Shown here piece after piece: positions 16,450 through 32,929 of a stretch of DNA of 64,000 nt (position 1 is the stretch's first letter; each line of letters opens with the position of its first letter). The notes below the pieces were generated by a model. It had not been told where the DNA came from. It saw nothing but the letters and a program-made list of their open reading frames with translations, and searched no databases. The position numbers were made by a program, and so were the translations under genes. Source of the DNA: Lachnospiraceae bacterium (GTDB lineage Bacteria > Bacillota > Clostridia > Lachnospirales > Lachnospiraceae); contig FZRB01000011.1 in assembly GCA_900199595.1 (NCBI GenBank), positions 62,001 to 126,000 of the forward strand, given 5' to 3'.

Positions 16450-16486
16450 GACTATTATTATTTGTTATGGAAGTGGATTGTTTATT

Positions 16487-19165
16487 GTGAGTGAAATGAC
16501 TGAAAAATTAAATAAAAGAATTGCTTTTGGATTTGCTGATTGGGTTTACAAAAATTATACATGGATATGTAGCTCACTGATCACAGCTTTTTTTATGTTT
16601 GGTTTTATGAAATATTTTAAGGTTTCTCCATTTGGTTTTAATACCTTTAATAATTCTGACTGTTTTCACCAGATTTATCCTATGCTGGCTGTACTACATG
16701 ATAAGCTTAGAAGTGGAGAAAGTCTGTTTTACTATTGGAACAGTGGTCTTGGAGGAGATTTTCTTCCTACATATTTTTATTATATTTCTTCACCTTTAAA
16801 TCTTTTAGTATATTTTATTGATAAGTCTGATATAGATGGGTTTATATGTATTCTTGTTGCTGTAAAAACGATTATTTCATCAGGAACTTTTGGATACTTT
16901 TTATCGAGAAAAAATGGCTTTGTTTGTAATAGTGTTTTTTATGTAGCCTTATCATGTGCATATGCACTTAGTAATTATATGAGTGGATATTATTTGGACT
17001 TAATGTGGCTGGATACTATCATGGTTTTTCCACTTATTATTCTTGGCTATAACAGAATGATTAAAGAACACAAACCTATGTTATATATTATTTCATTGGC
17101 ATACAGCTTATTCTGTAATTATTATATATCTTATATTGTTTGTGTTTTTCTTATTATCTGGTTCTTAATAGATGATCATAAAAGCCCAAAGAATTTTTTC
17201 TTTAATGGTCTTCGTTTTGCATTGTTTTCTATTCTTTCAGCTGCTATGGTAGCTGTACCTCTAATTACTTCATACATTGGTATTACTAAAACTATTTCCA
17301 ATGATGAAAGTATAGTATCTCATTCGTGGTATGGAAATATATTTTTTGTTCTGAGAAATGTTTTTATTTTTTCTAATCCAATTTCAACCTCTTATTTGCC
17401 GAATGTTGCAAATCTTTATTGTGGTTCATTTTGTATATTATTTGTATTTTCTTATATTTTTATAAAGAATGGAAATTTTCTTTCAAAAGTTAAAAGATTA
17501 TGTTTGCTGATTTTATTGATAATAAGTATGAATGAGACTGTGTTAAACTTCATATGGCATGGTTTTCATATTCAGCATAGTGTGCCTAATAGGTTCTCAT
17601 TTCTTTATATCTTTTTGGTTTTGCTAATATCATCAGAGGTTTTTGATTTTCTTTCAGATAAAAAATCTGTTAAAGAAGCTCTTCCAACAATTATTGGAAC
17701 AGGTTTTTCATTAGTTTTTTCTTTTGTTAGTTATTTTTTTGTGGATTATGATAGTTTTTTATCTTCACACCATGTATTACTATTATCTTTAGTTTTATTT
17801 TTTCTATATGAAATTTTGCTGCTTTCTCAGTTTTCAAGAGAACAGATTAAAAAGCTCGGAAGGATTATTATATCCGTTTTAATGCTTCTTGAGATATTAA
17901 TTAATGCAGTTTTTTCATATAAAATTAGTTTAGATCAATTAAGCTTTGCAAATGAATTTATTAATTATTTTGATAGTATTATAAGTCATGTTGAAACTAA
18001 TGATGATGAAATGTTTTACCGTTCAGAGGTTGCTGACGGAGTGATAGATAATGAAAATGCATATCATGGAATAAAAGGAATAGGTTCTTTTAATAGTACA
18101 TCAAATAAAGATTTTAATGTTTTTTTATATTTTTTTGGACATCATACATGGAAAAATAGGATTCATAACAGCCAGATTTCTGAGTATATTAATAGTATAT
18201 GTGGGGTTAAATACATATATAGTATAGAAGCTAATAAAGATTATGATGATTTTTTGTCATATAATGTTGTATATAGAGAAAATAGTATAAAAGTTATTAA
18301 AAATGAAGATGCTTTGTCTCTTGGATTTGGAGTTAGTAATAGAATTAGAGACTATAAATTAGATTATGTTTATGATTTAGAAGAAGAAATAAATGGATTT
18401 GTACAAAAAACAGCTATAGAAAAGGATATTATAAAAGAGATTATTCCTAATTATGATGTTTCCGTATATGGTTGCGAAATTGAGAATGGAGATAAAGATT
18501 ATTTAAATTTTAAATATAAAAATCTTGGAAATGAAAAAAATATAGTCATTTCATATATAGTAGAAGACGATGGACAATACTATATGGATACCCGAGAAAA
18601 TAATGAAGATATGATTACCTATAAAGTAAATGATGAAATAATAAGACAGAGTATATGGTTAACTAATGGTATCAGTCGTCTTGGAAAATTAAAAAAAGGT
18701 GATAAGGTTGAATTAATAATTTCTGATAATACCGGAAAATCATATCAGGCTAATGATAATATATCAGAGGTAAATGTGTTTACTTACATAATAGATGAAA
18801 AAGCTGTCCACGAATATGCTGAAAGTTTAAAGCATAATCAACTGCAGTTAAAAGCGTTTTCAGATGCCGAGTTCTCGGGAAGTGTAAATCTTGATAAGGA
18901 TCAGCTGTTATTCCTGTCCATCCCGTATGATAAAGGCTGGCATGTATATGAAAACGGTAAAGAAATAAAAACAGAAAAGCTGGCTGATACATTCCTGGGA
19001 GTAGATCTTGGTGAGGGAAATCATGAATTAACATTTAAGTTTGTTCCGGAAGGGTTGTATATAAGTTTATTTATTTCAGTGGTAGCATGGATTAGTTTTA
19101 TCATTCTTATAGTATTAATGAAGAGACAATATCAGAAGAAACAAACTGGTGAATCAAAAGAGTAA
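16487..19165 (+). CDS. YfhO-family GT-C membrane glycosyltransferase, copy 1
   Basis: The 892-residue protein has about 12 or 13 membrane helices in its first two thirds, an extracytoplasmic domain, and a final helix near the C-terminus (ISLFISVVAWISFIILIVLM). The text WNSGLGGDFLPTYFYY near residue 85 and the late YDKGWHVYENGKEI are typical of YfhO proteins. These transfer sugars from undecaprenyl phosphate to wall polymers, such as lipoteichoic acid GlcNAc addition in Bacillus and Listeria. The long ORF opens at ATG 16448, but this overlaps a -10 box and has no ribosome binding site; GTG 16487 has GGAAGTGG about 10 bases upstream, and ATG 16496 is a further option. Base composition changes near 18.8 kb (see findings). 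Confidence 0.8.
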   Translation: MSEMTEKLNKRIAFGFADWVYKNYTWICSSLITAFFMFGFMKYFKVSPFGFNTFNNSDCFHQIYPMLAVLHDKLRSGESLFYYWNSGLGGDFLPTYFYYISSPLNLLVYFIDKSDIDGFICILVAVKTIISSGTFGYFLSRKNGFVCNSVFYVALSCAYALSNYMSGYYLDLMWLDTIMVFPLIILGYNRMIKEHKPMLYIISLAYSLFCNYYISYIVCVFLIIWFLIDDHKSPKNFFFNGLRFALFSILSAAMVAVPLITSYIGITKTISNDESIVSHSWYGNIFFVLRNVFIFSNPISTSYLPNVANLYCGSFCILFVFSYIFIKNGNFLSKVKRLCLLILLIISMNETVLNFIWHGFHIQHSVPNRFSFLYIFLVLLISSEVFDFLSDKKSVKEALPTIIGTGFSLVFSFVSYFFVDYDSFLSSHHVLLLSLVLFFLYEILLLSQFSREQIKKLGRIIISVLMLLEILINAVFSYKISLDQLSFANEFINYFDSIISHVETNDDEMFYRSEVADGVIDNENAYHGIKGIGSFNSTSNKDFNVFLYFFGHHTWKNRIHNSQISEYINSICGVKYIYSIEANKDYDDFLSYNVVYRENSIKVIKNEDALSLGFGVSNRIRDYKLDYVYDLEEEINGFVQKTAIEKDIIKEIIPNYDVSVYGCEIENGDKDYLNFKYKNLGNEKNIVISYIVEDDGQYYMDTRENNEDMITYKVNDEIIRQSIWLTNGISRLGKLKKGDKVELIISDNTGKSYQANDNISEVNVFTYIIDEKAVHEYAESLKHNQLQLKAFSDAEFSGSVNLDKDQLLFLSIPYDKGWHVYENGKEIKTEKLADTFLGVDLGEGNHELTFKFVPEGLYISLFISVVAWISFIILIVLMKRQYQKKQTGESKE

Positions 19166-19189: not shown

Positions 19190-21793
19190 ATGCATTTTGA
19201 TAAAGAAAAAGATAATAATAGAATTAATAAAGTGGTTACAGATAATTATGTGTATTTAGTAACTGCTTTTATATCTATATTTGTTTTGATTATATGTTGT
19301 ATGATAACAAAGTCTGTTCCATATGGAGATAATTTTCCTATAAAGGGAAACGGGTATCTGCAGGATTATGCTCAGTTTTTTAAAGCTGTAAATGATATAA
19401 AGAGTTCAAAAAGTCTGGGATTAATTGATTATACCGGAGGTCTTGTATCTGATAATTATGGGGGGAAATCTACTTCAATTACATTTTATATAACTAGACC
19501 ATGGTTATATATAGTATATTTTCTTACACCTGAAGCACTTTATGAAGTTGTTTTTGCATTATACTATTATATTTACTTTATCATATCAGGTCCGATTTTT
19601 ATTTATTTCCTTACTCACAGATTATCCGGAAAACGACTGGAAAAGAATGATAAAAGACTTATATTATTAGGCCTGGCATATGGGCTTTCTTCTTATGCCA
19701 TAAGTTATTTTGTTTACTGTAATTTCCGGTTTTTAGTTTTTACTCCTATTATTTTATTAGGGGTTGAAAAGCTTATTTATGAAAAGAAAGTAATTCTTTA
19801 TATCATATCACTGTTCTATTGCATGATATCTGAGGCATATTATGCATTTATACTCTGTGTTTTTGTTGGTATTTATTTCGTTGTAATAGAAAATGAAATG
19901 AATAAATCCGGATTAAAAGACTTTATAAGATTTATTCTGTCTTCTATTTGTGCAGCAGGCTTATCAGCATTTTTCCTGATTCCATATTATTTTAGGATAA
20001 AGAACTCACCTTATTTAAGCTTCGATGATACTAGTCCATCATTATTTGGGTGGTTTGGAAATATATTATTACCATTATCTGATTATAGAGTTGCAAAAGA
20101 GGCTTTATGGACGAGTAATACAAACTATAGAGCAAATATATATGTTGGAATGCTTGTTATCTTACTGTTTCCGCTTTATTTCTTTATTAAGGATATCAAG
20201 CTTTTTCAAAGGATTAAAACAATTGTTGTTTTATTGTTGCTTTACTTTGCTTTTGATAATCAGTTTTTAAACTATATATTCCATGGTTTTCATTTCCAGT
20301 GGCAGACACCTAATCGTTTTGCTTTTTTCTTTATATTCTTAATTTTGGTCTGCTTTTATGATGTGTTAATCAGATTAGATGACTTTTCTACAAAAAAAAT
20401 ACTAGGCTGTGCTTTATGTTCAGGTGCAGTTATGATTCTTTCGTATATAATTGCATTTTATAAAAATGTGGATGATAAAGGATTAATAGCTTTTATACCA
20501 TCGGCTGTTTGTATAGCAGTTTATTGCTTGGCAGTTATAGTGTTATCGAAAAAAAGACAGAAATTGTTTGAAAAAACTATATTTATCCTTATGCTTATTG
20601 AACTGATAATCAGTGGTTGTTTTTCTCTGAAATTCTGTCTGGGTGATTCTGAAATACTATCCGAGGAAGCCAAAATAGAGAATATAAAGATTATTTCTCA
20701 ATCCTATGAAGATATGAAAGATTCTTTTGTTATTACTGAAAGACCTGGAGAATACTTTGATCAGAACTTTGCTTATTTATCAGGAGTTAATTCAATAAGC
20801 TATTATACTTCAGCAAGTTTTAGCCAGCAGATGGATATTCTTTACAGATGGGGAATTCTGTTTTCAAAGAATGTCATATATTATTCTAAAGGATCTCCAT
20901 TGGCAGATATGATGCTTCATGTAAAGTATCATATAGCAGATTCTACAGATGTTTTAAAACTATCCCCATATCAGCCTATAGCTGAACTAAATGGTTTATA
21001 TTTATGTGAGAATCAGTATTCTCTGCCGTTAGGTGTATATTTTGATAAAAACGAAAAGTTAGATGAGTGGAATACTACAGCTGAATCATATAGAAATTAT
21101 AGCTCTGCGTTTGAGAGAGATAATGAGTTTGCATCCTGCTTTGGCGTTGGTAAGATATATGATACCTTTATTGTGAGTGAAGCAACTGATCAAATGAATG
21201 TTAATGATTCTTATTATACAAAGGAGGAAAATGCAGACGGAACAGGGGGCTGTCTTTATACATTTTATATAGGACAGGACACGGGAGGGAAGATTTACTT
21301 TCCTATTGCTCAGGCGCTTGAATATGTTGGTGAGTCTAAAAAAGGCGAAAATGATATTCTTTATTTATATACTCCACAACAGATTAGTATTGATAATGAT
21401 GGGGCGCTTGAATTAGGCGTATGGAATGAAGAGAATTTCAGTGAACTGTATAAATGTCTTAGTAAACAGACTATGAAGGATTATACGTATGGTTCGGATT
21501 ATATATCAGGACATGTAGATGTTTCCGGTGAAGGAATTTTATATATGGCAATGCCTAATCTTCCGGGGTTTAAGGCTTATGTAAATGGAAAAGAATATGC
21601 TATAGAAAAATACATGGATGGAGTAGGTCTGAGACTTGATAAAGGATCATATGATATAAAGATAAAGTATGTTCCTCAGGGAAAGTATTTAGGAATTATA
21701 GTTTCAGTCGTTTTCGCTGTAATATTGTTATTTTATTATATAGTTTTAATAAAAAAAACAAAAAATTCTGGTCATGAAATTAGTGTGGGTTAA
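19190..21793 (+). CDS. YfhO-family GT-C membrane glycosyltransferase, copy 2
   Basis: The 867-residue protein has the same layout as its neighbour: an N-terminal membrane helix after a basic cytoplasmic start, a multi-helix membrane body, an extracytoplasmic domain, and a last helix (YLGIIVSVVFAVILLFYYIVL). NYIFHGFHFQWQTPNRFAFFF matches the LNFIWHGFHIQHSVPNRFSF region of copy 1 when aligned, so the two are distant paralogs, not recent duplicates. MPNLPGFKAYVNGKEY near the end parallels the first copy. It starts 24 bases after copy 1 and is likely in the same operon. Both probably use a lipid-linked sugar made by the CsbB/GtrB-like enzyme downstream; acceptors are unknown. Confidence 0.8.
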   Translation: MHFDKEKDNNRINKVVTDNYVYLVTAFISIFVLIICCMITKSVPYGDNFPIKGNGYLQDYAQFFKAVNDIKSSKSLGLIDYTGGLVSDNYGGKSTSITFYITRPWLYIVYFLTPEALYEVVFALYYYIYFIISGPIFIYFLTHRLSGKRLEKNDKRLILLGLAYGLSSYAISYFVYCNFRFLVFTPIILLGVEKLIYEKKVILYIISLFYCMISEAYYAFILCVFVGIYFVVIENEMNKSGLKDFIRFILSSICAAGLSAFFLIPYYFRIKNSPYLSFDDTSPSLFGWFGNILLPLSDYRVAKEALWTSNTNYRANIYVGMLVILLFPLYFFIKDIKLFQRIKTIVVLLLLYFAFDNQFLNYIFHGFHFQWQTPNRFAFFFIFLILVCFYDVLIRLDDFSTKKILGCALCSGAVMILSYIIAFYKNVDDKGLIAFIPSAVCIAVYCLAVIVLSKKRQKLFEKTIFILMLIELIISGCFSLKFCLGDSEILSEEAKIENIKIISQSYEDMKDSFVITERPGEYFDQNFAYLSGVNSISYYTSASFSQQMDILYRWGILFSKNVIYYSKGSPLADMMLHVKYHIADSTDVLKLSPYQPIAELNGLYLCENQYSLPLGVYFDKNEKLDEWNTTAESYRNYSSAFERDNEFASCFGVGKIYDTFIVSEATDQMNVNDSYYTKEENADGTGGCLYTFYIGQDTGGKIYFPIAQALEYVGESKKGENDILYLYTPQQISIDNDGALELGVWNEENFSELYKCLSKQTMKDYTYGSDYISGHVDVSGEGILYMAMPNLPGFKAYVNGKEYAIEKYMDGVGLRLDKGSYDIKIKYVPQGKYLGIIVSVVFAVILLFYYIVLIKKTKNSGHEISVG

Positions 21794-21931: not shown

Positions 21932-23743
21932 ATGAAAAAAAGACTTGCTGATGTGGTAGTGGATACATTAATAAAATTAAATATTAATACATGTTTTTCG
22001 GTTGTGGGTGGGGGATCAATGCATTTAAATAATGCGTTTGCTTTGAAAAAAAATCAAATAAATACCATCTATAATCATCATGAGCAAGCTTGTACTATGG
22101 CTGCAGAAGGATATGCTAGGTATTCTGGAGGTATAGCGGCAGTTTGTGTGACCAGTGGTCCTGGAGGCACCAATGCAATTAATGGTGTTCAGAGTGCCTG
22201 GGTTGATAGTATACCTATGATAGTTTTTTCGGGGCATCCTAGATATGAGACTACTGTAACTGCATCAGGTTTGAACTTACGCGTTAGAGGAGTTCAAGAG
22301 AATGATATAATTAGTATGGTAAGTTCTATTACTAAGTATGCAAAAACTGTGCTTGATCCTAAGAGTATTGTATATGAAATAGAAAAAGCTATTAGTATAG
22401 CTATGGATGGAAGACGAGGACCTGTTTGGTTAAGTGTTCCGTTGGATATACAAGGAGCGTTAGTTGAGGAAGATGAACTATATGAATATATAGAAAAGGA
22501 TAATTCTGAATATTATGTTGAACATGTAAAAGACAATTATTTGGATAAACTGCAATATTTTATTAACCAATCTAAACGTCCATGTATACTTACTGGGTCT
22601 GGTATAAGAACCGGTGCTGCGGAAAGTTTATTTAGACAGTTTATGTCGGGTATAAATGTTCCTGTTGTGGGAGGTGCACAACAGGCTGATATAAACTATA
22701 ATGGAGAAAATAACTATTATGGTTTATCCGGTTCGATTGGTCCTAGAACGGGAAATTATATTCTTTACAATGCTGATTTAATAATAGTTTTAGCTAATAG
22801 TCTTTCGTTTAATCAGACAGGAAATGCGGTATCGGATTTTGTTCCTAATGCGAAAATAGTTATGATTAACGCTGAGGAAGATGAGGCAAAAAAAGATGGG
22901 CTGCACGTTGATTTGAATATTGTTTGTGATATTAAAGAATTTTTTGAAAAAGCTATAGATTATAATCTAACTATCAATGCTTCACAGGAATGGATTAATC
23001 AATGTAATAATATTTTCAAGGCAAATATTAAGTATGAAATGTTAGTTCGTCACGGAGAATTAAACGATTCTGAGAGGGTTCCTGCATTGTTATTTTGGAA
23101 AGAGTTTATGAAAAAAGTCCAGAAAAATGCAGTTATTAATCTTGGAAACAGCTGCTCAGTTCATGGTATCTTACAAGAGGGGGCTGATTATGCTGATCAA
23201 AGAATAATGGTAAATTATAATTGTGGATCTATGGGCGCTGATATACCTAATGCTATAGGTTCTACTGTTACAAGTATTGATTTACCGCATTATTGCGTTA
23301 CTGGTGAAGGATCCGTAATGATGAATATCCAAGAGTTTCAAACTATTTATCATTACAAGTTGCCTATAAAAACAGTTATTTTTAATAATAATGGATATGG
23401 AGCAATTAGGAATACTTGTGAAAGCTTTTTTAATGGCTTCTATAATGGATGTACTCCGGAAAGTGGTATCAGTTTTCCAGATATTAGTGATGTTGCAAAA
23501 GCATTTAAGATACCTTATAAGGTTTGCAGAAATGTAGGTGAATTACATGATTCTTTAGATTGGATTGTAAATTATGAGGGATACTGCATTTTGGAAATAT
23601 ATGAGATACTTGATGAAATAAGAGGTCCTAAGCTTGTTTCCAGAATGGATGAAAATGGTGTGTTTTATACTCCGCCAGTTTACGATCTTAGTCCTGTTGT
23701 GGATGAAAAAACAATTCGTAATTACATAGATAATCTAGAATAG
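21932..23743 (+). CDS. Acetolactate synthase-like TPP enzyme of the glycan locus
   Basis: The 603-residue protein has the three-domain layout of thiamine-diphosphate enzymes. The cofactor-activating Glu51 is in NHHEQACTMAAEGYAR. SGPGGTNAINGVQSAWVDSIPM follows near 75-100, and the C-terminal TPP/Mg motif runs from GEGSVMMNIQEF to NNNGYG about 28 residues on. It resembles IlvB but differs from the true IlvB at the right edge, and no small regulatory subunit gene is adjacent. Related enzymes in polysaccharide loci, such as YerE, attach a two-carbon unit from pyruvate to a keto-sugar to make branched sugars. Its place before a CMP-sugar synthetase and NeuB homolog suggests a sugar substrate rather than branched-chain amino acid synthesis. 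The exact reaction cannot be read from sequence. Confidence 0.8.
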   Translation: MKKRLADVVVDTLIKLNINTCFSVVGGGSMHLNNAFALKKNQINTIYNHHEQACTMAAEGYARYSGGIAAVCVTSGPGGTNAINGVQSAWVDSIPMIVFSGHPRYETTVTASGLNLRVRGVQENDIISMVSSITKYAKTVLDPKSIVYEIEKAISIAMDGRRGPVWLSVPLDIQGALVEEDELYEYIEKDNSEYYVEHVKDNYLDKLQYFINQSKRPCILTGSGIRTGAAESLFRQFMSGINVPVVGGAQQADINYNGENNYYGLSGSIGPRTGNYILYNADLIIVLANSLSFNQTGNAVSDFVPNAKIVMINAEEDEAKKDGLHVDLNIVCDIKEFFEKAIDYNLTINASQEWINQCNNIFKANIKYEMLVRHGELNDSERVPALLFWKEFMKKVQKNAVINLGNSCSVHGILQEGADYADQRIMVNYNCGSMGADIPNAIGSTVTSIDLPHYCVTGEGSVMMNIQEFQTIYHYKLPIKTVIFNNNGYGAIRNTCESFFNGFYNGCTPESGISFPDISDVAKAFKIPYKVCRNVGELHDSLDWIVNYEGYCILEIYEILDEIRGPKLVSRMDENGVFYTPPVYDLSPVVDEKTIRNYIDNLE

Positions 23744-23745
23744 GT

Positions 23746-24687
23746 ATGAAAATGAAGAAACTAAGTATTGTTATAGCGTGTTTTAATGAAGTGGGAAATG
23801 TCGAGGAATTGACAGAAAGAATTCAGAATGTAATGAGTAAAGAAACTGATTATGAGTATGAAATAATCTTTTGTGATAATGACTCTTCAGATGGAACGCA
23901 AGATAAATTAAGAAAATTAGCAAAAAGGGATAAAAGAATAAAGGTAATACTAAATAATCGTAATTATGGTCCCATGAGATCTCCAAAGAATGCATTTAGA
24001 CATATTACTGGAGATGTTGAGCTCTTACTTGCTGCCGATTTACAAGATCCTCCTGAATTAATTCCTGAATTCCTAAGAGCGTGGGAAGAAGGATATAAGT
24101 TGGTTTATGGACAAAAGGTCTCTAGTGATGAAGGAGTTATTAAATATGGGTTTAGATCTTTATTCTATAATATTATAAATTCATTTTCAGAAACTCCCCA
24201 GTATAAGCATATATCCGGTATATCTTTAAATGACAGAGAAGTGTTAGAGATAATGCTTAATGCAGATGAGGATATGGAGTTTAGATATCTTTTGCCTGAA
24301 ATGGGGTATCCTGTAAAGCTTATTCAGTATAAACAACAAAAACGTAAAAGTGGTAAATCAAGCTATAATTTAAAAAGGTATTTGAATTTTGCGTTAGATT
24401 CTCTTACATCTACATCAACTGTTCCACTTCGAGTAGCTACTATTCTTGGATTAATTATGGCTTTTATTTTCTTTTTAATAGGTGTTGGTTATTTGATATA
24501 TAAGCTTATTTATTGGGATGAGTTTTCAGTTGGAACAGCTCCTTTAGTTATTGGAATGTTTTTTTGGAGTTCAATTCAGTTAGTTTTTGTGGGGCTTTTA
24601 GGTGAATATGTAGGAGCTATTCTTAGGAAAGTAACTAAAACAATTCCTGTTATTGAGAAGGAATTAATTAATTTTGATGAGGATTAG
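23746..24687 (+). CDS. CsbB/GtrB-like polyprenyl-phosphate glycosyltransferase
   Basis: The 313-residue protein is a family 2 glycosyltransferase (SIVIACFNEVGNVEELTERI at the start, DNDSSDGTQDKL, then AADLQDPPELI with the catalytic metal-binding Asp pair). Two C-terminal membrane helices follow (about 228-250 and 265-290, the second before LGEYVGAILRKV). This is the build of CsbB, GtrB and ArnC, which load a sugar onto undecaprenyl phosphate on the inner face. Together with a YfhO-type transferase it would form the known Gram-positive glycosylation route. It begins 3 bases after the TPP enzyme stop, with only a weak ribosome binding site, so translational coupling is likely. The separate flippase (GtcA-like) is not visible in the window. 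Confidence 0.85.
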   Translation: MKMKKLSIVIACFNEVGNVEELTERIQNVMSKETDYEYEIIFCDNDSSDGTQDKLRKLAKRDKRIKVILNNRNYGPMRSPKNAFRHITGDVELLLAADLQDPPELIPEFLRAWEEGYKLVYGQKVSSDEGVIKYGFRSLFYNIINSFSETPQYKHISGISLNDREVLEIMLNADEDMEFRYLLPEMGYPVKLIQYKQQKRKSGKSSYNLKRYLNFALDSLTSTSTVPLRVATILGLIMAFIFFLIGVGYLIYKLIYWDEFSVGTAPLVIGMFFWSSIQLVFVGLLGEYVGAILRKVTKTIPVIEKELINFDED

Positions 24688-24693
24688 TAAATT

Positions 24694-26292
24694 ATGGGTG
24701 TAACTGCTATTATCCCCGCGAGAGCGGCTTCCAAAAGTATACCAAATCAGAATGTTAGAATTGTTGCAGGACATCCATTGGTTTATTATTCTATTATGAA
24801 GGCAAAAAAATCAAGATATATTGATAGAGTTATTGTAACAACAGATTCAGAGGATATTGGTATAATAGCAAATCAATTGGGGGTTGAATTATGGAAAAGG
24901 AGTGATGCTCTAAGTCGTGACGATGTTACTATTGATGCAGTTGTATATGATGTTGTGAAGAATTGTGTTGATAGCGAATATATTGTTACGTTACAACCTA
25001 CGTCCCCTTTATTAAGTGTAGATACTTTAGATAATGCTTTTGAGTATTGTTTTGAAAAAAAACTTGATTCACTGGTTGCTGTAATTAATGATCAAAGATA
25101 TTCATGGGTTATAGATGATAATAAAAGAATTCCAAATTATACAAGACGTGTTAATAGAGAGGAATTACCTAAGAATTATTTGGAATCGGGTGCATTTCTT
25201 ATATCTAAAACTTGTATAGTATCACAAGAATCAAGAATTGGAGATAATACAGATATATATGAGATTCCTAGGATTGAGTCATATGGTATAGATTCGTTTG
25301 AAAATTTACAGATAGTTAAGTATATTTTACAAAGTAAAAAAACGGCAATTTATGTGAATGGAAATAATATGATGGGTATGGGACATATCTACAGATCGCT
25401 TGAAATTGCGGATGAATTGTACTCAAAGCCGGATATTATTTATAATTCGAGTATTACGGATGTTTCAGTTTTTGGTAGTACTACGCATACTTTAATAAAG
25501 GTAGATGATGAAGAGGAATTAATCAATAAGTGCAAAAGTGAACAGTATGAACTATTTATTAACGATGTTTTAGATACTTCTATTGATTATATGAATAGAC
25601 TTAGGGATGTCTTGCCACATACTAAAATTGTTAATTTTGAAGATGCTGGGGATGGGATTCTGAAAGCAGATGTTGTATTTAATGCGTTATATAATGAAAG
25701 AGTACTACCTTATGTATATTCTGGAGAAAAATACTTTATAATTGGGCGCAGATTTCTATACTATGAGCCAATAAAAATAAAGGATAAGGTAAAAAATGTT
25801 TTTATTTCTTTTGGTGGTGCAGATCCAAGCAATTACACTGAAAGATTATTAAAAATAGTAAGTAAAGAAAATTATAGCAATGTGAATTTTATTGTTGTTG
25901 TTGGAAGAGCCAATAAGAATTATAAAAAGCTTTTGCGATACTCCAATAAAAATATAAAGATAGAGTATGATGTAACTAATATGCCAGAGTTAATGTCTAA
26001 ATGTGATTTTGCTATCACTTCAAGAGGACGTACAGGATTTGAGTTAGCTTATTTAGGCATACCAACAATCGCAATAGCTCAGAATCATAGAGAAGAAATG
26101 CATAGTTTTGTTTCTAATGAGAATGGGTTTTCGTATATTGGTCTTAATCCATCAGATAGTATAATAGAGAGCAATCTTCAGGTTTATATAAATATGTCTA
26201 TGGAAGTAAGGCTGGAGTATCAAAAAAAATTATTATCACATGATTTAAGAAGTGGCAGAACTCGAGTGATGGGATTAATTAACTATATATAA
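24694..26292 (+). CDS. CMP-sugar synthetase fused to PseG-like hydrolase
   Basis: The 532-residue protein has two domains. Residues 1 to about 225 are a NeuA/PseF/LegF-type cytidylyltransferase (IIPARAASKSIPNQNV, TLQPTSPLL, LPKNYLESGAFLIS). Residues about 230-532 resemble PseG, a UDP-sugar hydrolase of the GT-B fold: GMGHIYRSLEIADEL holds the conserved GxGHxxR with the catalytic His, and SFGGADPSNYTERLL and the C-terminal SRGRTGFELAYLGIPTI region fit nucleotide binding. PseG releases UDP to give the free sugar that a NeuB-type enzyme condenses with PEP, and the N-terminal half then activates the product with CTP. The next gene is exactly such a NeuB homolog. PseB, PseC and PseH counterparts are absent, so the sugar is unlikely to be plain pseudaminic acid. 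Confidence 0.85.
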   Translation: MGVTAIIPARAASKSIPNQNVRIVAGHPLVYYSIMKAKKSRYIDRVIVTTDSEDIGIIANQLGVELWKRSDALSRDDVTIDAVVYDVVKNCVDSEYIVTLQPTSPLLSVDTLDNAFEYCFEKKLDSLVAVINDQRYSWVIDDNKRIPNYTRRVNREELPKNYLESGAFLISKTCIVSQESRIGDNTDIYEIPRIESYGIDSFENLQIVKYILQSKKTAIYVNGNNMMGMGHIYRSLEIADELYSKPDIIYNSSITDVSVFGSTTHTLIKVDDEEELINKCKSEQYELFINDVLDTSIDYMNRLRDVLPHTKIVNFEDAGDGILKADVVFNALYNERVLPYVYSGEKYFIIGRRFLYYEPIKIKDKVKNVFISFGGADPSNYTERLLKIVSKENYSNVNFIVVVGRANKNYKKLLRYSNKNIKIEYDVTNMPELMSKCDFAITSRGRTGFELAYLGIPTIAIAQNHREEMHSFVSNENGFSYIGLNPSDSIIESNLQVYINMSMEVRLEYQKKLLSHDLRSGRTRVMGLINYI

Positions 26293-26305
26293 GAGGGTAT
26301 ATATT

Positions 26306-27346
26306 ATGAATAAACCATATATTATTGCCGAAATAGGAGTAAATTATTACGATACAGCTAAGGCCATGGGGATTACGCCTTTAGAAGCAGCAAAGCTATA
26401 CATTGATGAAGCTTTTTCTGCAGGGATTGATTGTGCCAAATTTCAATCATATAAAGCTAATACAATTGTATCAAAGAATTCTCCAGCATATTGGGATACA
26501 AGTAAGGAACCTACTAAAACTCAATATGAACTTTTTCAAAAATTTGATAGTTTTGGCGAGAAAGAATACAGTGAATTAAGTGATTATTGCCATAGTAAAG
26601 GAATGGATTTTACATCTACACCTTTTGATTATGCTTCTGCAGATTATTTGTATGAATTAGTGGATTTTTATAAGATTTCGTCTTCTGATCTTAGTAATAT
26701 TCCATTTATTAAATATATAGGAGAAAAGGGGAAGAAGGTAATAATATCAGTTGGTGCATCATATTTATATGAAGTTGATGAGGCTGTAAGAGCTCTAAAC
26801 GATGTTGGTTGTTTTGATATAGGATTACTTCACTGTGTATTATCGTATCCCACAGTACCCGAAAATGCTAATCTTAGAGTGATTAAGACATTAAAGTCAA
26901 TATATCCGGAATATAAAATAGGGTTTAGTGATCATGTTGCTCCGGACGATTGTATGACAACATTAACTACTGCATTTATTATGGGGGCTGAAATAATTGA
27001 AAAGCATTTTACATTAGATAAGTCTTTGAAAGGAAATGATCATTATCATTCGGGTGATCCAGAGGATTTTAAAAAAGCTATAAAGAATTTTATATTAATA
27101 GATAAATTGATGGGAGATCCACAAAAGACTGTTTTACCGTGTGAAGAAATTCCTAGGCGTGAAGCACGACGATCTTTGGTTGTGTTGAAGGATATGAAAG
27201 CAGGAGATATTATAACAGATAGTGATGTCATGGCAAAACGTCCGGGAACAGGAATATCTCCCAAATATACAGATATTGTTATTGGTAGAATCTTAAAGAA
27301 TGATATTAAAGAGGATACAATTCTTAATTGGGATATGCTGCTATAG
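26306..27346 (+). CDS. NeuB/SpsE-family ulosonic acid synthase
   Basis: The 346-residue protein matches the sialic, legionaminic and pseudaminic acid synthase family. PYIIAEIGVNYYDTAKAMG is the N-terminal TIM-barrel signature. FTSTPFDYASADYLYEL and FYKISSSDLSNIPFI are core strands, and GFSDHVAPDD and EIIEKHFTLDKSLKGNDH hold metal and PEP-binding residues. The last 60 residues (RRSLVVLKDMKAGDIITDSDVMAKRPGTG) form the SAF antifreeze-like domain. The enzyme would condense phosphoenolpyruvate with an aldose or N-acyl hexosamine. Usual members have AEIGxNHxG; here the His is replaced by Tyr (VNYYD), hinting at a different sugar. It is preceded by GAGGG and lies 13 bases after the CMP-synthetase fusion. 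Confidence 0.88.
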   Translation: MNKPYIIAEIGVNYYDTAKAMGITPLEAAKLYIDEAFSAGIDCAKFQSYKANTIVSKNSPAYWDTSKEPTKTQYELFQKFDSFGEKEYSELSDYCHSKGMDFTSTPFDYASADYLYELVDFYKISSSDLSNIPFIKYIGEKGKKVIISVGASYLYEVDEAVRALNDVGCFDIGLLHCVLSYPTVPENANLRVIKTLKSIYPEYKIGFSDHVAPDDCMTTLTTAFIMGAEIIEKHFTLDKSLKGNDHYHSGDPEDFKKAIKNFILIDKLMGDPQKTVLPCEEIPRREARRSLVVLKDMKAGDIITDSDVMAKRPGTGISPKYTDIVIGRILKNDIKEDTILNWDMLL

Positions 27347-27373
27347 TTATAACTATGGTGTTATGGTGAAAAG

Positions 27374-28261
27374 ATGGAAAAAGTAGTTATTACAGGGGCA
27401 AATGGATTTTTGGGAAGTAATCTCGTAAAGTCTATGCTTGATGATGGATATTTTGTTTATGCGGTTATAAATTCTAATAATGATAATCTAGTAGATATAA
27501 AGTCAGAGAATCTAATTATTACTGATGATATAGATAGCGTGAAAGGTGCTGTTGATATTTTTTTTCATTTCGCGTGGGTAGGTAATTCCGGCTTGGCTAG
27601 GGCAGACGTTTCATTACAGCAAAAGAATATTATATATTCATGCAATATGTTAAATGTGGCAAATAAATTAAAGTGTAAAAAGTTCTTTTTTGCCGGAAGT
27701 GTGATGGAGTACGAGGCTTTTACTTCAATATCTATTGATTCATTAAAACCGGGATTGGGTAATATATACAGTGCTTCTAAATTAACTGCTGATATATATT
27801 TAAAAACATTATCTACTCAATTGGGTATTAATTATATTAGTTTTCTTATTTCTAATATTTATGGTCCGGGAGAAAAAAATCAGCGGTTGATTTATTCATC
27901 AATTAATAAAATAATTAAAGGTGAAAAAACTGCTTTTACAGATGGAAAACAAAAATATGATTTTATTTATATAAAGGACGCTATAAATAAGTTTGTAATT
28001 ATTGCAAAGTATGGTACGGAAGGTTCGTATTACATCGGTAATCCTACACAAAAACAATTGAGAGATTATATAGTTGAGATGGGAAGTGTTCTAGGAATTG
28101 ACGAAAATAATATGGGAATAGGTGATTTAGGTGAATCAACACAGATTATCGATTATGATATGATTGATACGGATCGGTTTGAACGAGAATTTGAATATAG
28201 AAATACGGTTGGTTTTAAAGATGGTATAAGAAATACAGTTAATTATATAAAGGGTTGTTAG
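27374..28261 (+). CDS. NAD-dependent epimerase/dehydratase (SDR) of the glycan locus
   Basis: The 295-residue extended SDR has the nucleotide-binding GANGFLG at the N-terminus, and the catalytic Tyr and Lys in YSASK after a Ser in FAGSVMEY. FLISNIYGPGEKNQRLI is the substrate-loop region typical of sugar epimerases and dehydratases. The family converts 4-keto or 4-hydroxy nucleotide sugars, but the precise substrate cannot be told. It ends 3 bases before the ATG of the RmlC-like gene. Confidence 0.8.
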   Translation: MEKVVITGANGFLGSNLVKSMLDDGYFVYAVINSNNDNLVDIKSENLIITDDIDSVKGAVDIFFHFAWVGNSGLARADVSLQQKNIIYSCNMLNVANKLKCKKFFFAGSVMEYEAFTSISIDSLKPGLGNIYSASKLTADIYLKTLSTQLGINYISFLISNIYGPGEKNQRLIYSSINKIIKGEKTAFTDGKQKYDFIYIKDAINKFVIIAKYGTEGSYYIGNPTQKQLRDYIVEMGSVLGIDENNMGIGDLGESTQIIDYDMIDTDRFEREFEYRNTVGFKDGIRNTVNYIKGC

Positions 28262-28263
28262 GT

Positions 28264-28833
28264 ATGAATAGTTTTAGATTTGAAAAACTTGATATTGATG
28301 GTGTTTGGTTGATTCATCCTTTTCAATATGAAGATGATAGAGGTGTATTTATAAAGGATTTTGATTCGCGAGTTTTTATTGATAATGGGCTTGGTAATAT
28401 AACTTTTAAAGAAGAGTTTTATAGTTTGTCCCATAAAAATGTGATCCGTGGTCTTCATTTTCAAACACTAAGACCACAATCAAAGATTGTATCTTGCATT
28501 TCTGGGTGTATATTTGATGTAATCGTTGACTTAAGAAGGGATTCGAGTACATTTGGTCAATATATTCATGTTGAATTGTCTGACAAGAATCATGATAGTG
28601 TTTTTATTCCCAAAGGATGTGCACATGGTTTTTTATCATTAAATGATAATACAGTGACCTACTATAAATGCGATGATGATTATTTGCAGAATAATGACTC
28701 TACAATCAAATGGAATGATCCGGATATAGGTATACTATGGCCACTGGATGATGTTGATAAAGTTATAATGAGTGATAGAGATATAAATGCGATGTCTTTT
28801 AAGAATTTTATTGATAGTTATGGAGGCTTATAG
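28264..28833 (+). CDS. RmlC/RfbC-like dTDP-4-keto-sugar epimerase
   Basis: The 189-residue cupin matches dTDP-4-dehydrorhamnose 3,5-epimerase: GVWLIHPFQYEDDRGVFIKDF at the start, NVIRGLHFQ with the active-site His, KIVSCISGCIFDVIVDLRRDS, and IPKGCAHGFLSLNDN. Members epimerize C3, C5 or both in 4-keto-6-deoxy sugars. No RmlA, RmlB or RmlD lies beside it, so it may act on a locally made sugar rather than for rhamnose. The start is ATG 28264, with AAAGGG nine bases upstream; the ORF can be opened at TTG 28255 inside the previous gene, but this has no spacing for a ribosome binding site. Confidence 0.85.
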   Translation: MNSFRFEKLDIDGVWLIHPFQYEDDRGVFIKDFDSRVFIDNGLGNITFKEEFYSLSHKNVIRGLHFQTLRPQSKIVSCISGCIFDVIVDLRRDSSTFGQYIHVELSDKNHDSVFIPKGCAHGFLSLNDNTVTYYKCDDDYLQNNDSTIKWNDPDIGILWPLDDVDKVIMSDRDINAMSFKNFIDSYGGL

Positions 28834-28834
28834 T

Positions 28835-29884
28835 ATGGATATTGTTAGAGAGTATAAACCTTTATTGTATGGAGATGAGACTCCTTTTTTTTCTATTATT
28901 ATTGTTTCCTACAATTATGAAAAAACTATTCTGAGAGCTTTAGAAGCTATTAAGAATCAGACGTATGATAAATATCAAATAGTTTTAGTTGATAATGGAT
29001 CTACTGATAATACTAATGAAATAATTCAAAAGTTTATACAAAATAATAAAGATTTATATATTACCCATATTATAATTGAAAAAAATGAAGGTTTACCAAA
29101 GGGAAGAAATCTTGGAATTAAAAATGCATGTGGTAAATATTTAATTTTTAACGATGCTGATGATTGGATGGATAGAAGATTTCTTGAAATAATATATAAA
29201 GCATCACGAAATGGGTGTGCAGATAGGATTAGTGTTCAGTTTAGAGATGTTTCACCCGAAGGAAAGGTTCTTCAGGTTAGAAATTATGTAAAAGGAATGT
29301 CGCCATGGTATATTACCTTATTACAAGGTAATGCGTTTAGACGTGATATATTTGTTAAAAATAATATATTGGTTCCTGATACATTTGAGGATGATTTATA
29401 TATATCATTACAGGTTTTAGGTCATGCAAAGAGGTGCGTGATAGTACGTAAAACGCTATATAATTATTATGTAAATAATAATTCTACGTCCGGAATTAAT
29501 TCTATAACAGAAAAAGAGAGAATAGGTGCTATTTTAGATGATGTGATAAATTGTGTGGATCCTGTTCGAAGGATAGTATCACACAATAATTGGGAATATT
29601 TGGAATATCAAATGATAAAGTGTTATTATAACCTGATTTTTAACTACAATCGGAATAGATCTTATAAGGATATTTCGGATGTATATCATTATTTAAATAA
29701 TAAAATAAAAAAATATGATGCTAATTATTTAAATAATAAAAAAATTAAGTTATCTTTTAATGGAGACAGGATTTATGGTCGGTTGTTAACATATTTTTTT
29801 GTGTTATCAGAAAGACTTCATGTTATGGTTCCCATTTTATGGATGTATATATTTTTATCTAAAATATTATATTTCAATGTTTGA
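28835..29884 (+). CDS. Family 2 glycosyltransferase (A-type)
   Basis: The 349-residue protein has a GT2 GT-A domain: FFSIIIVSYNYEKTILRALE, VDNGSTDNTNEII, then GLPKGRNLGI and FNDADDWM, the last holding the metal-binding DxD-like acidic cluster. The C-terminal 140 residues are Asn, Tyr and Lys-rich and probably helical, ending in a hydrophobic stretch (PILWMYIFLSKILYF). ATG 28835 has GGAGG eight bases upstream and starts 1 base after the previous stop; the longer ORF start at 28787 lies inside the RmlC-like gene. It most likely adds one sugar of the repeat unit or of a lipid-linked intermediate. This gene has the most AT-rich stretches of the window. Confidence 0.85.
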   Translation: MDIVREYKPLLYGDETPFFSIIIVSYNYEKTILRALEAIKNQTYDKYQIVLVDNGSTDNTNEIIQKFIQNNKDLYITHIIIEKNEGLPKGRNLGIKNACGKYLIFNDADDWMDRRFLEIIYKASRNGCADRISVQFRDVSPEGKVLQVRNYVKGMSPWYITLLQGNAFRRDIFVKNNILVPDTFEDDLYISLQVLGHAKRCVIVRKTLYNYYVNNNSTSGINSITEKERIGAILDDVINCVDPVRRIVSHNNWEYLEYQMIKCYYNLIFNYNRNRSYKDISDVYHYLNNKIKKYDANYLNNKKIKLSFNGDRIYGRLLTYFFVLSERLHVMVPILWMYIFLSKILYFNV

Positions 29885-29931: not shown

Positions 29932-30852
29932 ATGAAAAAGCTTATAATTGGTCGTAATGGATTTGTTGGGAAGAATCTAGGTGAGTTTTTTAATGATGCT
30001 CATATAATAGGTAGTTCTGAATTAAATCTTCTTTCAGAAACAGCTGTTATGGACTTTTTTAAAAATGAGTATTTTGATATTGTTATCAATACCGCCGTTT
30101 ATAATCCGAGAAATGAAAAGAATAAAGAAGGATCTTCGACTGAAATAGAATTAGAAAATGATCTTCGTATGTTTCATAATATTGCGAGATGTCATGATTT
30201 ATATGGTAAGATGATTTACTTTGGATCCGGTGCAGAATATGATAAAAGATATCCTATATGTTCTGTTACTGAAGAGGATTTGATTGATAGTAAAAGTGGC
30301 AGCTGTAGTAATTTATTACCGGAAAGTCAGTACGGGCTGGCAAAGTATATTATTGGTCGTGAAATAGAGTCAGGAATATATGGGGCAGATAACATATATA
30401 ATCTGAGGATATTTGGGTTGTTTGGCAAATATGAAAACTGGAAATCTACATTTATTTCCGGAGCTTGTTGCAAGGCTATGAAGGGAATTCCTATTACTAT
30501 CCGCCAAAACGTCTTTTTTGATTATCTTTATATAAATGACTTTTGTGAGATGATACATAGGTTTATACAAATAGAAAAACCAAAGTACCATACTTATAAT
30601 ATTACCTCGGGAAGAAGAGTTTCTCTTACTGAATTAGCAGAAATAGTTAATAGAGTTAGTGGGAAAGATGTACCGGTCATTATTTGCAAGGATGGACTGG
30701 CAAATGAATATACTTCTTCTAATCAGAGATTACTATCTGAAATCGGTGATGTTGACTTTACATCATTTGAGGATGCTATAGCTGACTTATATGGTTATTA
30801 TAAGTCGATAGAAGAGGATATAGACTTATATTCATTATTATATCAGGCTTAG
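29932..30852 (+). CDS. NAD-dependent sugar epimerase/reductase (SDR)
   Basis: The 306-residue SDR starts MKKLIIGRNGFVGKNL (GxxGxxG form), has VINTAVYNPRNE, and carries the catalytic YGLAK after FGSGAEYD. FDYLYINDFCEMIHRFI and YNITSGRRVSLTELAEIVN are typical of GDP-fucose synthase or RmlD-like enzymes. A reductase role on a 4-keto sugar is plausible. GAGG precedes the ATG. It is the last gene of the glycan cluster and is followed by a palindrome at 30892. Confidence 0.8.
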   Translation: MKKLIIGRNGFVGKNLGEFFNDAHIIGSSELNLLSETAVMDFFKNEYFDIVINTAVYNPRNEKNKEGSSTEIELENDLRMFHNIARCHDLYGKMIYFGSGAEYDKRYPICSVTEEDLIDSKSGSCSNLLPESQYGLAKYIIGREIESGIYGADNIYNLRIFGLFGKYENWKSTFISGACCKAMKGIPITIRQNVFFDYLYINDFCEMIHRFIQIEKPKYHTYNITSGRRVSLTELAEIVNRVSGKDVPVIICKDGLANEYTSSNQRLLSEIGDVDFTSFEDAIADLYGYYKSIEEDIDLYSLLYQA

Positions 30853-30952: not shown

Positions 30953-32929
30953 ATGAAAACAAATGGATTAAAGAGTTTATTATTATTACTGATTATATGC
31001 GTTACTTTTTTTTCAAATAATAACGTAGTAGAAACACATGCAGAATCCCAAGGGGGTTCTGTTATTATTTATAACTATCTTACCTGCAGAAACAGATCGG
31101 ATACGGTTAAGCATATGATCAGAGAGATTGATGATCAGGACAAGGGAATTATTTTTACAATAACAGTAAGTGTAAAGCTTCCGTCAGGAACATGGAATCA
31201 GGACCCGATAACTACTATATCAAAGACTGATGGGATTGCTGATATAAATAACGGTAAGGTTAATGCCTCTTATTCAGGTGGTAAGTATAAATACTATGTT
31301 AAGGCATATGCAAATCAGGCTTTAGAATTATCGGGTATCCCAGAAGGGAGTAAGGTAACATGCAATGCTCCTCAGAATATTTATAAGGATGCCTCTCAGA
31401 CAGTAACCTCATCTGTAATAGCTCTATCTGCATTTAATAATGCTAACACTAATTATAAAGATATTAGCGTATCTGCTACAAAACCAAGTGAGTGTTATCT
31501 ATATTATGATTATAAAGCTGGATCTATTGAGATAGAACAGCAAAAAGATGCTGAGGGAAAGGATCTTCCTGATAATTTAGCGGTGAATTATGTTGTTACA
31601 TTTACAGGCAGCGGAAGTATAAAAGACTATAAGGACAGACAGATTTCAACAGCTGATAAAAAGTATTCGGCAGTATTTGCATATGATAGTAGTGCCGGTA
31701 AATATGTAGCACAGCTTCATATGTCAATAACGGGAAAAGAAAGCGCTAAGATCGACTTTATTCCTGCTGATACTGAATATACTATAGAGGTTGAAGACAA
31801 TGAGTATTATTTACTGACGGGAATAGAAGGGCAAAATGGCAAAATAGAAAAAGAAAAAGATGTAAATCATCTTTCAATCTATTCATATCATGGTTCTGAG
31901 GAAAATGCTGTTGCGACAATCAGATATGATGGTAAGAAAATAGTTACTACACCGACACCTACGGCAACAATGCAGCCTACAGCGACAGCTACCCCTACGA
32001 TTACTTTGGCTCCTACCGCGACAAAAACTCCAGCAGTGAATCCAACGGCGACAAATGCACCGTCATCAATTGCTACACCAACGAAAGTACCAGCTGTGAA
32101 CCCAACGGCGACAAATGCACCGTCATCAACTGCTACACCAACGAAAGTACCGGCAGTGAACCCAACGGCAACAAATGCACCGTCATCAACTGCTACACCA
32201 ACGAAAGTACCGGCAGTGAACCCTACAGCAACAAACGCTCCTGTAGCAACAAATACTCCGGCAGTGAATCCAACAGCTACTAACGTGCCAGAAGCAACTC
32301 CTACAGCGACAAATGTGTCAACAGCCACTCCGGAAGGGATAGAGACTCCATATGTAAAGCCTACGGCTACAAAGACTCCGGATGTTATACCAGTTGATCC
32401 TATTGTGACGAAAGAACCATCTGCGACACCTTATGTTACGGAAAACCCAAGTGTTACTCCTAACCCAACTTCAGATGTATCTGAACAATCATCCGGATAT
32501 TTGAAGAAGAATACAGTCATCAAATCAAAGAAGGGTATATTTGTTGTAATTGGAAAAGGTAAGGTGGCATTTAATAAACCGGTTAACAAAAAGGTGAAGT
32601 CTGTATCAATTCCTAAATCAATTAAATGCAAGGGAAAAGAATACATAGTTACAGAAATCAGTGCCAATGCATTTAAGGGATGTAAGAAGCTGAAAACAGT
32701 CACCATTTCAAAAAACATAAATAAGATTGGTAAAAAGGCATTCTACGGTTGTAAGAAACTAAAAACTGTAAAGATAAAAACAACCAAGCTCAAAAAGGGT
32801 AGTATTGGTAAGAAGGCTTTCTCAAATATATATAAAAAGCCTGTGTTTAAGTGCCCTAAGAAGAAACTGAAGGTTTATAAAAAGTTAATCAAGAAATCCG
32901 GGGCAGCTAAATCAAGTAAGTATAAGTAA
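30953..32929 (+). CDS. Secreted protein with Pro/Thr repeats and BspA-like end
   Basis: The 658-residue protein begins with a Sec signal peptide (MKTNGLKSLLLLLIICVTFF, cut near HAES). An N-terminal beta-rich region (about 35-325) has Ig-like or Cna-B-like text such as EYTIEVEDNEYYLLTGIEG. Residues about 330-500 are a Thr/Pro/Ala low-complexity spacer holding three identical-length repeats of PTATNAPSSTATPTKVPAVN. The C-terminal region (about 515-650) is very Lys-rich and carries leucine-rich repeats of BspA type (ISANAFKGCKKLKTVTI, KKAFYGCKKLKTVKI). No LPXTG motif or anchor is seen; the basic end could bind anionic wall polymers. It is likely a surface-displayed binding protein, but no ligand can be assigned. 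Confidence 0.75.
   Translation: MKTNGLKSLLLLLIICVTFFSNNNVVETHAESQGGSVIIYNYLTCRNRSDTVKHMIREIDDQDKGIIFTITVSVKLPSGTWNQDPITTISKTDGIADINNGKVNASYSGGKYKYYVKAYANQALELSGIPEGSKVTCNAPQNIYKDASQTVTSSVIALSAFNNANTNYKDISVSATKPSECYLYYDYKAGSIEIEQQKDAEGKDLPDNLAVNYVVTFTGSGSIKDYKDRQISTADKKYSAVFAYDSSAGKYVAQLHMSITGKESAKIDFIPADTEYTIEVEDNEYYLLTGIEGQNGKIEKEKDVNHLSIYSYHGSEENAVATIRYDGKKIVTTPTPTATMQPTATATPTITLAPTATKTPAVNPTATNAPSSIATPTKVPAVNPTATNAPSSTATPTKVPAVNPTATNAPSSTATPTKVPAVNPTATNAPVATNTPAVNPTATNVPEATPTATNVSTATPEGIETPYVKPTATKTPDVIPVDPIVTKEPSATPYVTENPSVTPNPTSDVSEQSSGYLKKNTVIKSKKGIFVVIGKGKVAFNKPVNKKVKSVSIPKSIKCKGKEYIVTEISANAFKGCKKLKTVTISKNINKIGKKAFYGCKKLKTVKIKTTKLKKGSIGKKAFSNIYKKPVFKCPKKKLKVYKKLIKKSGAAKSSKYK
32041..32220 (+). 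repeat. Three tandem 60-base repeats in the Pro/Thr spacer
   Basis: Three units of exactly 60 bases (32041-32100, 32101-32160, 32161-32220) differ at only a few positions. Degenerate partial copies flank them on both sides. Each encodes 20 residues. Such repeats change copy number by slippage or recombination. Confidence 0.95.

Follow-up and report, generated by a model that had tools for sequence, protein, structure and literature searches.

The stretch of DNA analyzed here, referred to as the window, comprises 64,000 nucleotides from a Lachnospiraceae bacterium (contig FZRB01000011.1; G000:C7:62001-126000 in our working labels, in which L, G and C denote loci, genomes and contigs, respectively). 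Its own genome, G000, measures 3.49 Mb in 47 contigs and is given as 100% complete. The window carries a block of sugar genes encoding a YerE-like thiamine diphosphate (ThDP or TPP) enzyme, a NeuB protein, a cytidine monophosphate (CMP)-nonulosonate synthetase fused to a PseG-like hydrolase (NeuA-PseG), an RmlC epimerase, glycosyltransferases and two short-chain dehydrogenases/reductases (SDR1 and SDR2). We consider it probable that the block is a composite surface-glycan locus of three modules, of which the first makes a cytidine diphosphate (CDP)-linked, C4-branched 3,6-dideoxyhexose of the yersiniose kind, the second a CMP-nonulosonate and the third a 6-deoxyhexose. Most likely, therefore, at least two separate surface sugars are made, one branched and one sialic-acid-like, and not one branched sialic-acid-like sugar. 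The initial annotation of the block (21932-29884) had assigned its enzymes to one pathway to an undescribed, possibly branched ulosonic acid; the genes that it named are indeed present as intact open reading frames (ORFs) at the coordinates given, with the expected Pfam and NCBIfam domains (Table 1).

When compared with solved structures, the TPP enzyme matched 8rph with 300.5 bits and the best acetolactate synthase chain with 196 bits. According to the respective reports, 8rph is the structure of JanthE, a YerE-like enzyme (PMC12188165), and YerE decarboxylates pyruvate and transfers the activated acetaldehyde to a CDP compound in the synthesis of yersiniose A, with 2-keto acids of various lengths being accepted by YerE-like enzymes (PMC12247030). 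The latter also refers to an in silico study that yielded more than 200 YerE-like enzymes, the product structure being known for few. A housekeeping acetolactate synthase was rejected, as the corresponding models gave 262.8 bits against a cut-off of 738 and 249.1 bits against 538.35, and the best match was YerE-like. The enzyme keeps Glu51 (HHEQA), and its ThDP motif reads GEG, not GDG (window 23303-23311, TPP residues 458-460). GDG occurs in most relatives and GEG in 7 of 86 homologous TPP proteins (7 were unreadable by pattern); at the same motif, JanthE has CDG (PMC12247030).

The genes expected to supply a substrate for such an enzyme are encoded on the same contig. RfbF, RfbG and RfbH are contiguous (G000:C7:51919-55168) ~29 kb upstream of the TPP gene, i.e., 6.8-10.1 kb before the start of the window, and hence lay outside the view of the initial annotation. 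RfbF (glucose-1-phosphate cytidylyltransferase), RfbG (CDP-glucose 4,6-dehydratase) and RfbH scored 387, 415.8 and 710.1 bits, respectively, against NCBI cut-offs of 300.25, 278.45 and 423. In the same-genus genome G160, RfbF lies beside the genes for SDR2 and the TPP enzyme, and both RfbG and RfbH are found on that contig too. A search of 299 genomes of the family for TPP relatives (E<=1e-60) yielded 71 positive genomes, 63 of which carried RfbH, as compared with 36 of the 228 genomes without a TPP relative (Fisher p ~9e-30, kinship not corrected). GTDB was also scanned with a six-row TPP alignment, all six rows of which lie near NeuB, and the best 79 of 544 loci were retained. RfbH was present in 39 of the 47 genomes searched from among these. 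Besides Lachnospiraceae and other Bacillota, with a goat-omasum Eubacterium metagenome-assembled genome (MAG) and Lachnospiraceae as the closest records, these best 79 loci represented Alphaproteobacteria, Gastranaerophilales, Endomicrobium, a Legionella MAG, a Synergistaceae, a Spirochaetales MAG and methanogen-related archaea.

The second partner of the TPP enzyme is SDR2, which sits just beyond the block as initially annotated. An SDR2-type protein was encoded within ~7 kb of all six close TPP copies, including that of the window (6.2 kb), and the partners in L032, L033, L034, L036 and L037 showed 36-59% identity. In L214 (Eubacterium plexicaudatum ASF492), a close-subfamily TPP gene appears as two ORFs.

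For module 1, we propose a scheme in which the reactions, product structure, branch length, order of transfer and acceptor are all predicted. RfbF, RfbG and RfbH would produce CDP-4-keto-3,6-dideoxyglucose; from a 2-keto acid decarboxylated by the TPP enzyme, the acyl unit would be passed to C4 of this sugar, and SDR2 would then reduce the newly formed ketone. The branched sugar would be loaded by GtrB on undecaprenyl phosphate for export and be transferred by a YfhO protein to an acceptor on the outside, perhaps a pilus.

The genes of module 2 were found without those of module 1 in other genomes. NeuB relatives (E<=1e-80) were present in 13 of 392 genomes of the order Lachnospirales, the window's included, and all 12 other carriers had a fused NeuA-PseG gene (product of 527-555 amino acids) near NeuB, directly adjacent in ten and with one gene between in two. 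Neither the TPP enzyme nor RmlC was found in any of these 12 cassette stretches (4.9 to 20 kb each), and carrier G293 had no TPP match at E<=1e-60. Since the NeuB/NeuA-PseG pair occurs without it, the TPP enzyme is not supported as a part of the NeuB route. There was no NeuC or LegC label in the 12 stretches; DegT proteins were seen in L233 and L236 (31 and 27% identity to the L145 protein), SDRs with 25-28% identity to LegB in L229 and L236, and a PseB/FnlA-like protein in L237.

The PEP (phosphoenolpyruvate)-condensing synthase, CTP (cytidine triphosphate)-activation domain and PseG-type hydrolase recognized in the initial annotation were confirmed as NeuB plus SAF domains and as PseF-like and PseG-like halves of the fusion. 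All of them score below curated equivalog cut-offs: NeuB reached 284.8 of 399.65 bits for N-acetylneuraminic acid (Neu5Ac) synthase (TIGR03569) and 211 of 340.25 bits for pseudaminic acid synthase, the PseG half 113.8 of 153.55 bits (TIGR03590), and the PseF-like half (TIGR03584) fell short as well. A tree of 57 NeuB rows, from which rows of <300 amino acids were omitted, as were L136, L164 and L170 (same contigs as L032, L036 and L037), placed the window NeuB in a clade of 17 with support of 100/100. Within this clade, the fusion was present in 15 of 17 loci (in L032 with four genes between) and a separate PseG in the other two, with a NeuC label in none; gene labels in the tree, in the 12 cassette stretches and in the locus comparisons below are best BLAST matches to reference proteins from the loci gathered here, and weak labels can err. 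The clade is further marked by GVN[YF]Y[DE] near the N-terminus, found in 17/17 of its members, and all 31 readable sequences among the other 40 rows have NHxG (nine were unreadable by pattern). In the fusion, His231, which aligns with His17 of 3hbm, and Asn464 (in AQN) are invariant in 13/13 aligned proteins; we take His17 of 3hbm and the AQN Asn to be catalytic in PseG.

Genes for a nonulosonic precursor were sought in the window's own genome and in G160, the identity comparison covering loci fetched around hits. No match to PF02350 (NeuC/WecB, Epimerase_2) exceeded the cut-off of 30.6 bits in either genome, and a candidate hidden NeuC at 28.8 bits (own genome, C16) was rejected, the match lying in a CDP-glycerol glycerophosphotransferase domain (PF04464, 130.9 bits). 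PF02719 (PseB-type) gave partial matches only, up to 49.5 bits in the own genome and 58.4 bits in G160; several of these are RmlB or RfbG, the others not having been identified one by one. DegT matches spanning the model (PF01041) consisted of RfbH and one DesI-like aminotransferase per genome. Among the fetched hit loci, including those for PF16363 and PF01041, the best matches to LegB, LegC, PseB and PseC were paralogues of 22-32% identity (22-31% for LegB and LegC) and the NeuC and PglD references had no match, with PseH, PglD and small acetyltransferases not searched genome-wide. On this evidence, the signature genes of the pseudaminic, legionaminic and NeuABC sialic routes appear to be missing from both genomes; for PseB, PseC and NeuC, a lack had already been noted in the block. 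Likewise, DegT matches at E<=1e-30 were absent from two cassette carriers, G656 (98% complete) and G572 (79% complete); the other ten had 1 to 8 each. Because G656 has no DegT match, a 4-amino sugar precursor, and thus a product of the legionaminic or pseudaminic type, appears unlikely in that genome.

None of the characterized nonulosonic routes tested for explains the pair of NeuB and CMP-synthetase-PseG in this genome, and an undescribed ulosonic acid, as initially suggested, is therefore plausible; that it is branched by the TPP enzyme is not supported. In the route as we picture it, a nucleotide sugar would be hydrolyzed by the PseG domain, the freed sugar joined to PEP by NeuB, and the product activated by the cytidylyltransferase half of the fusion. 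We put forward, tentatively, that NeuB and the fusion suffice on their own, as two genes, for the synthesis of an undescribed nonulosonic acid. The PseG domain would act on a common nucleotide sugar, e.g., a uridine diphosphate (UDP)-hexose or UDP-N-acetylhexosamine, cleaving it without 2-epimerization, and this clade of NeuB would accept the released sugar for condensation with PEP. The product would lack a 7-amino group and may have an unusual C5 configuration; in the window's genus, one surface glycan would unite it with the branched CDP-sugar.

Somewhat less likely still, in our estimation, is that module 2 makes an ordinary nonulosonate, i.e., Neu5Ac, 2-keto-3-deoxynononic acid (Kdn) or a relative of legionaminic or pseudaminic acid, from a precursor that is scavenged or made by unrecognized enzymes, such as N-acetylmannosamine from amino-sugar catabolism. 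The top model of NeuB is after all that of Neu5Ac synthase, although the scores of NeuB and of the PseF and PseG halves remain below cut-off, as do those of the G656 pair, and although the protein belongs to a separate clade with an altered GxNHxG motif. The DesI-like aminotransferase found in both genomes of the genus could in principle be a source of deoxythymidine diphosphate (dTDP)-Qui4N; the 98% complete carrier G656, with no DegT match, speaks against an ordinary nonulosonate. Elsewhere in the NeuB clade, the NeuB genes of L143 and L145 have neighbours encoding a DegT aminotransferase and PglD-like and LegB-like proteins, and some clade members may therefore use a diamino sugar. Finally, Bacillus subtilis SpsG is required for legionaminic acid, as stated in PMC7439481. 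The PseG domain as proof of pseudaminic acid was rejected, PseB and PseC not having been found and SpsG offering a precedent.

How the TPP enzyme is distributed relative to nonulosonic genes was assessed in two ways. Among 79 TPP places in the family sample, with NeuB places taken only from genomes with a TPP match, NeuB lay within 12 kb of the TPP gene for 6/6 places of >500 bits, 0/49 of 340-500 bits and 6/24 of <340 bits, and weak NeuB genes may be missed in these counts. In the second tally, 69 of the 79 GTDB loci (those of at least 12 kb) were scored for presence anywhere within the locus. NeuB was present in 33 of the 36 TPP loci with an SDR2-type protein, as compared with 11 of the 33 without; RfbH was inside the locus in 16/36 and 25/33, respectively, and a GtrB-type protein in 17/36 and 18/33. 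Some loci with close TPP enzymes, e.g., L137, L138 and L139 (65, 58 and 56% identity), have no NeuB within the locus, and SDRs of L137 and L139 resemble PseB by eye. The TPP/SDR2 pair also stands beside near-complete sets for ordinary nonulosonates, namely PseB, PseC, PseF, PseI and PseG in L149, all over their cut-offs, and NeuC, LegC and NeuB in L033, again over cut-offs, together with a LegB-like protein below its own. In these two loci, therefore, the pair need not stand in for any nonulosonic enzyme.

Several findings weigh against a branched CDP-sugar and a nonulosonate being made separately. The link of the close TPP subfamily to NeuB is no weaker than its link to RfbH: among the sampled genomes that carry it, NeuB was present in 5/5 and RfbH in 4/5, G251 (79% complete) being without an RfbH match. 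RfbFGH and the TPP enzyme are in separate operons in the own genome, the window enzyme carries GEG where most relatives carry GDG, and no precursor steps are recognized for module 2. The modules are interleaved in the window (TPP, GtrB, NeuA-PseG, NeuB) and in L032, and L141 encodes SDR2, TPP, NeuA-PseG and NeuB in a row, as would be expected of a single pathway. In addition, three of the 12 cassette genomes (G004, G079 and G193) have a TPP relative elsewhere, in a TPP search that covered four of the 12.

Alternatively, the TPP enzyme could act on a 4-keto intermediate, or on the product, of a nonulosonic route, the genomes then making branched legionaminic, pseudaminic or other nonulosonic acids. 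The legionaminic and pseudaminic routes do pass through 4-keto intermediates, and the 6/6 close copies lie near NeuB across differing nonulosonic sets. We regard this as improbable, given that RfbH accompanies the TPP relative in 63 of 71 genomes, and that L149 and L033 hold, beside the TPP enzyme, the aminotransferase expected to use the 4-keto group.

Marginally more improbable is the pathway originally proposed, in which the PseG domain would cleave the CDP-branched sugar from RfbFGH, the TPP enzyme and SDR2, NeuB would join the released sugar to PEP, and the CMP domain would activate the product. It would account for the interleaved gene order and for there being no other NeuB precursor route found in two near-complete genomes of the genus. 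We rejected it because the modules occur apart: the cassette stands without a TPP gene in the stretches of all 12 other genomes, and G293 has no TPP match; the TPP/SDR2 pair is found with near-complete legionaminic and pseudaminic sets; and the distant TPP relatives without SDR2 have RfbH in most loci and NeuB in only a third. A place in the NeuB route for the TPP enzyme, RmlC and an SDR is not supported, as the TPP enzyme tracks RfbH and an SDR. Of the refutation that the initial annotation had set for itself, one half thus holds: the TPP enzyme most likely acts in another route, but the missing nonulosonic genes did not turn up elsewhere in the genome. That the locus is decaying and makes nothing is extremely improbable: the Asp-to-Glu change in the ThDP motif and the distance of RfbFGH from the rest could be read in this way, but all ORFs are intact, GEG recurs in homologues, so that it was rejected as a sign of decay, and G160 retains TPP, SDR2, GtrB, NeuA-PseG and NeuB genes with others in between.

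Other TPP loci differ in gene content. In G160 (L032:2152-6841), the genes between NeuA-PseG and NeuB encode, as judged by eye, MBOAT-like and DltD-like proteins, a Gfo/Idh-like oxidoreductase and a PtmA-like SDR, which suggests further modification of the sugar. The TPP loci L035 (2942-10801), L160, L171 and L183 combine NeuB with a KdsC-like HAD protein and PtmA- or Gfo/Idh-like proteins, and possibly represent a Kdn-like or phosphorylated route. In L178, L180, L182, L185, L186, L187 and L191, genes for TPP (38-43% identity), NeuB, NeuC and an SDR stand in a row. These loci, from Bacillota and a Synergistaceae, also hold RfbH, and L180 and L187 carry flagellin-like genes.

With regard to module 3, the gene order SDR1, RmlC, GT2 is repeated at the left end of L145 (53, 59 and 55% identity, respectively), followed there by RfbF and a LegB-type gene. 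Copies of RmlA and RmlB were found elsewhere in the own genome (C10, C11, C34). We read the three genes as a separate 6-deoxyhexose unit, whose products would make and transfer a third sugar. RmlC as proof of a nonulosonic step was rejected, since it exceeds the dTDP-rhamnose epimerase cut-off and the triple is repeated in L145. AscE acts in a CDP-sugar pathway, and an AscE-like role of RmlC in a CDP pathway is possible. The actual start of the module 3 GT2 gene, judged by eye, is probably near 28835.

Table 1. Genes of the sugar locus, with positions in the window and principal matches
Feature	Position	Strand	Match
YfhO family membrane protein; candidate GT-C type transferase using lipid-linked sugar (putative role)	16448-19165	+	PF09586, E 5.9e-128
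Second YfhO family membrane protein (putative role)	19190-21793	+	PF09586, E 3.2e-75
YerE-like ThDP (TPP) enzyme, module 1	21932-23743	+	TPP_enzyme N, M and C domains; best PDB match 8rph, 2.5e-88
GtrB/ArnC-like polyprenyl-phosphate glycosyltransferase (GT2)	23746-24687	+	PF00535; PgfS-/ArnC-like NCBIfam models below cut-off
Fused CMP-nonulosonate synthetase and PseG-like nucleotide-sugar hydrolase (NeuA-PseG), module 2	24694-26292	+	TIGR03584, 4.1e-27; TIGR03590, 1.1e-32
NeuB, distinct clade, module 2	26306-27346	+	PF03102, 241.4 bits; SAF domain PF08666, 47.8 bits
SDR1, extended SDR, module 3	27374-28261	+	PF01370, 2.7e-34
RmlC, NDP-4-keto-6-deoxyhexose 3,5-epimerase, module 3	28255-28833	+	TIGR01221, 190.8 bits (cut-off 155.75)
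GT2 glycosyltransferase, module 3	28787-29884	+	PF00535, 5.1e-31
SDR2, extended SDR, partner of TPP enzyme	29932-30852	+	YxxxK at 134-138; SDR2-type near close TPP copies

The surroundings of the locus offer candidate acceptors. Genes of the type IV pilus type flank the sugar locus in the window (476-9948; PilM/PilN, proteins with N-methylation motifs, T2SSE and T2SSF) and in L108 (15458-19576), and the glycan may therefore decorate a pilus. By eye, similar-looking pilus genes lie beside the TPP loci L137 and L145. As judged by eye, the contigs of L036 and L037 run on into flagellin and other flagellar-looking genes, an indication that flagellin is glycosylated in these genomes. Adjoining the sugar genes of the window is a gene (30953-32929) for a secreted-looking protein with long Pro/Thr repeats and BspA-type leucine-rich repeats, a possible glycosylation target. 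Further on, a fused nucleotidyltransferase and CobD/HisC-like aminotransferase (34097-37134) lies beside a CDP-glycerol glycerophosphotransferase-like protein, and together they may form a unit for phospho-amino-alcohol decoration. No hit came from a defence-gene scan of two proteins.

YerE-like and NeuB pathways are both of known kinds. The open-access literature, surveyed mostly by title and the start of the abstract, yielded neither their repeated pairing nor the orphan NeuB/NeuA-PseG clade; a report on pseudaminic flagellar glycosylation in Clostridium contains no mention of acetolactate, thiamine, CDP-glucose, Lachnospir- or yersiniose (PMC13317340). YerE-type branched sugars and nonulosonic acids are repeatedly co-encoded, for the most part in bacteria of the gut and rumen and in some cases next to flagellin genes; this suggests a kind of surface glycan that has received little study. 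Of most interest is the orphan cassette, a NeuB clade with a fused activating and hydrolyzing partner and no recognized precursor enzymes in the genomes tested. The hybrid pathway first proposed is replaced here by two testable claims, and the substrate of the NeuB clade is easily assayed. Should a common nucleotide sugar prove to be that substrate, the route to a sialic-acid-like sugar would be much shorter; we know of none that short.

Among known systems, the dTDP-L-rhamnose route is matched by an RmlC over its curated cut-off and by RmlA and RmlB elsewhere in the genome, but RmlC is grouped here with SDR1 and GT2, as in L145. With the legionaminic, pseudaminic and sialic routes, the locus shares a NeuB with SAF domain, a CMP-synthetase domain and a PseG-type domain with its His kept. 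It differs from them in that the PseB/LegB dehydratase, PseC/LegC aminotransferase and NeuC were not found in the two genomes tested, the CMP-synthetase and PseG are fused, and NeuB belongs to a separate clade, with scores below curated cut-offs. The SpsG protein of B. subtilis is of the PseG type, and we know of no NeuC in the sps pathway. The legionaminic pathway proposed for that organism consists of SpsM, SpsC, SpsD, SpsG, SpsE and SpsF (PMC7439481). There, SpsM, SpsC and SpsD supply the precursor, whereas no such enzymes were recognized here. The closest likeness of module 1 is to the YerE/yersiniose A pathway and its YerE-like ThDP enzymes, JanthE and ErwE included, with which it shares the sequence family (8rph, 2.5e-88), the partners RfbF, RfbG and RfbH for a CDP-4-keto-3,6-dideoxy sugar, and an SDR near the TPP gene. 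It departs from that pathway in the GEG motif, in the detached RfbFGH operon, in a reaction that is predicted, and in belonging to a TPP subfamily with its own SDR, SDR2, that is found with NeuB in 33 of 36 loci.

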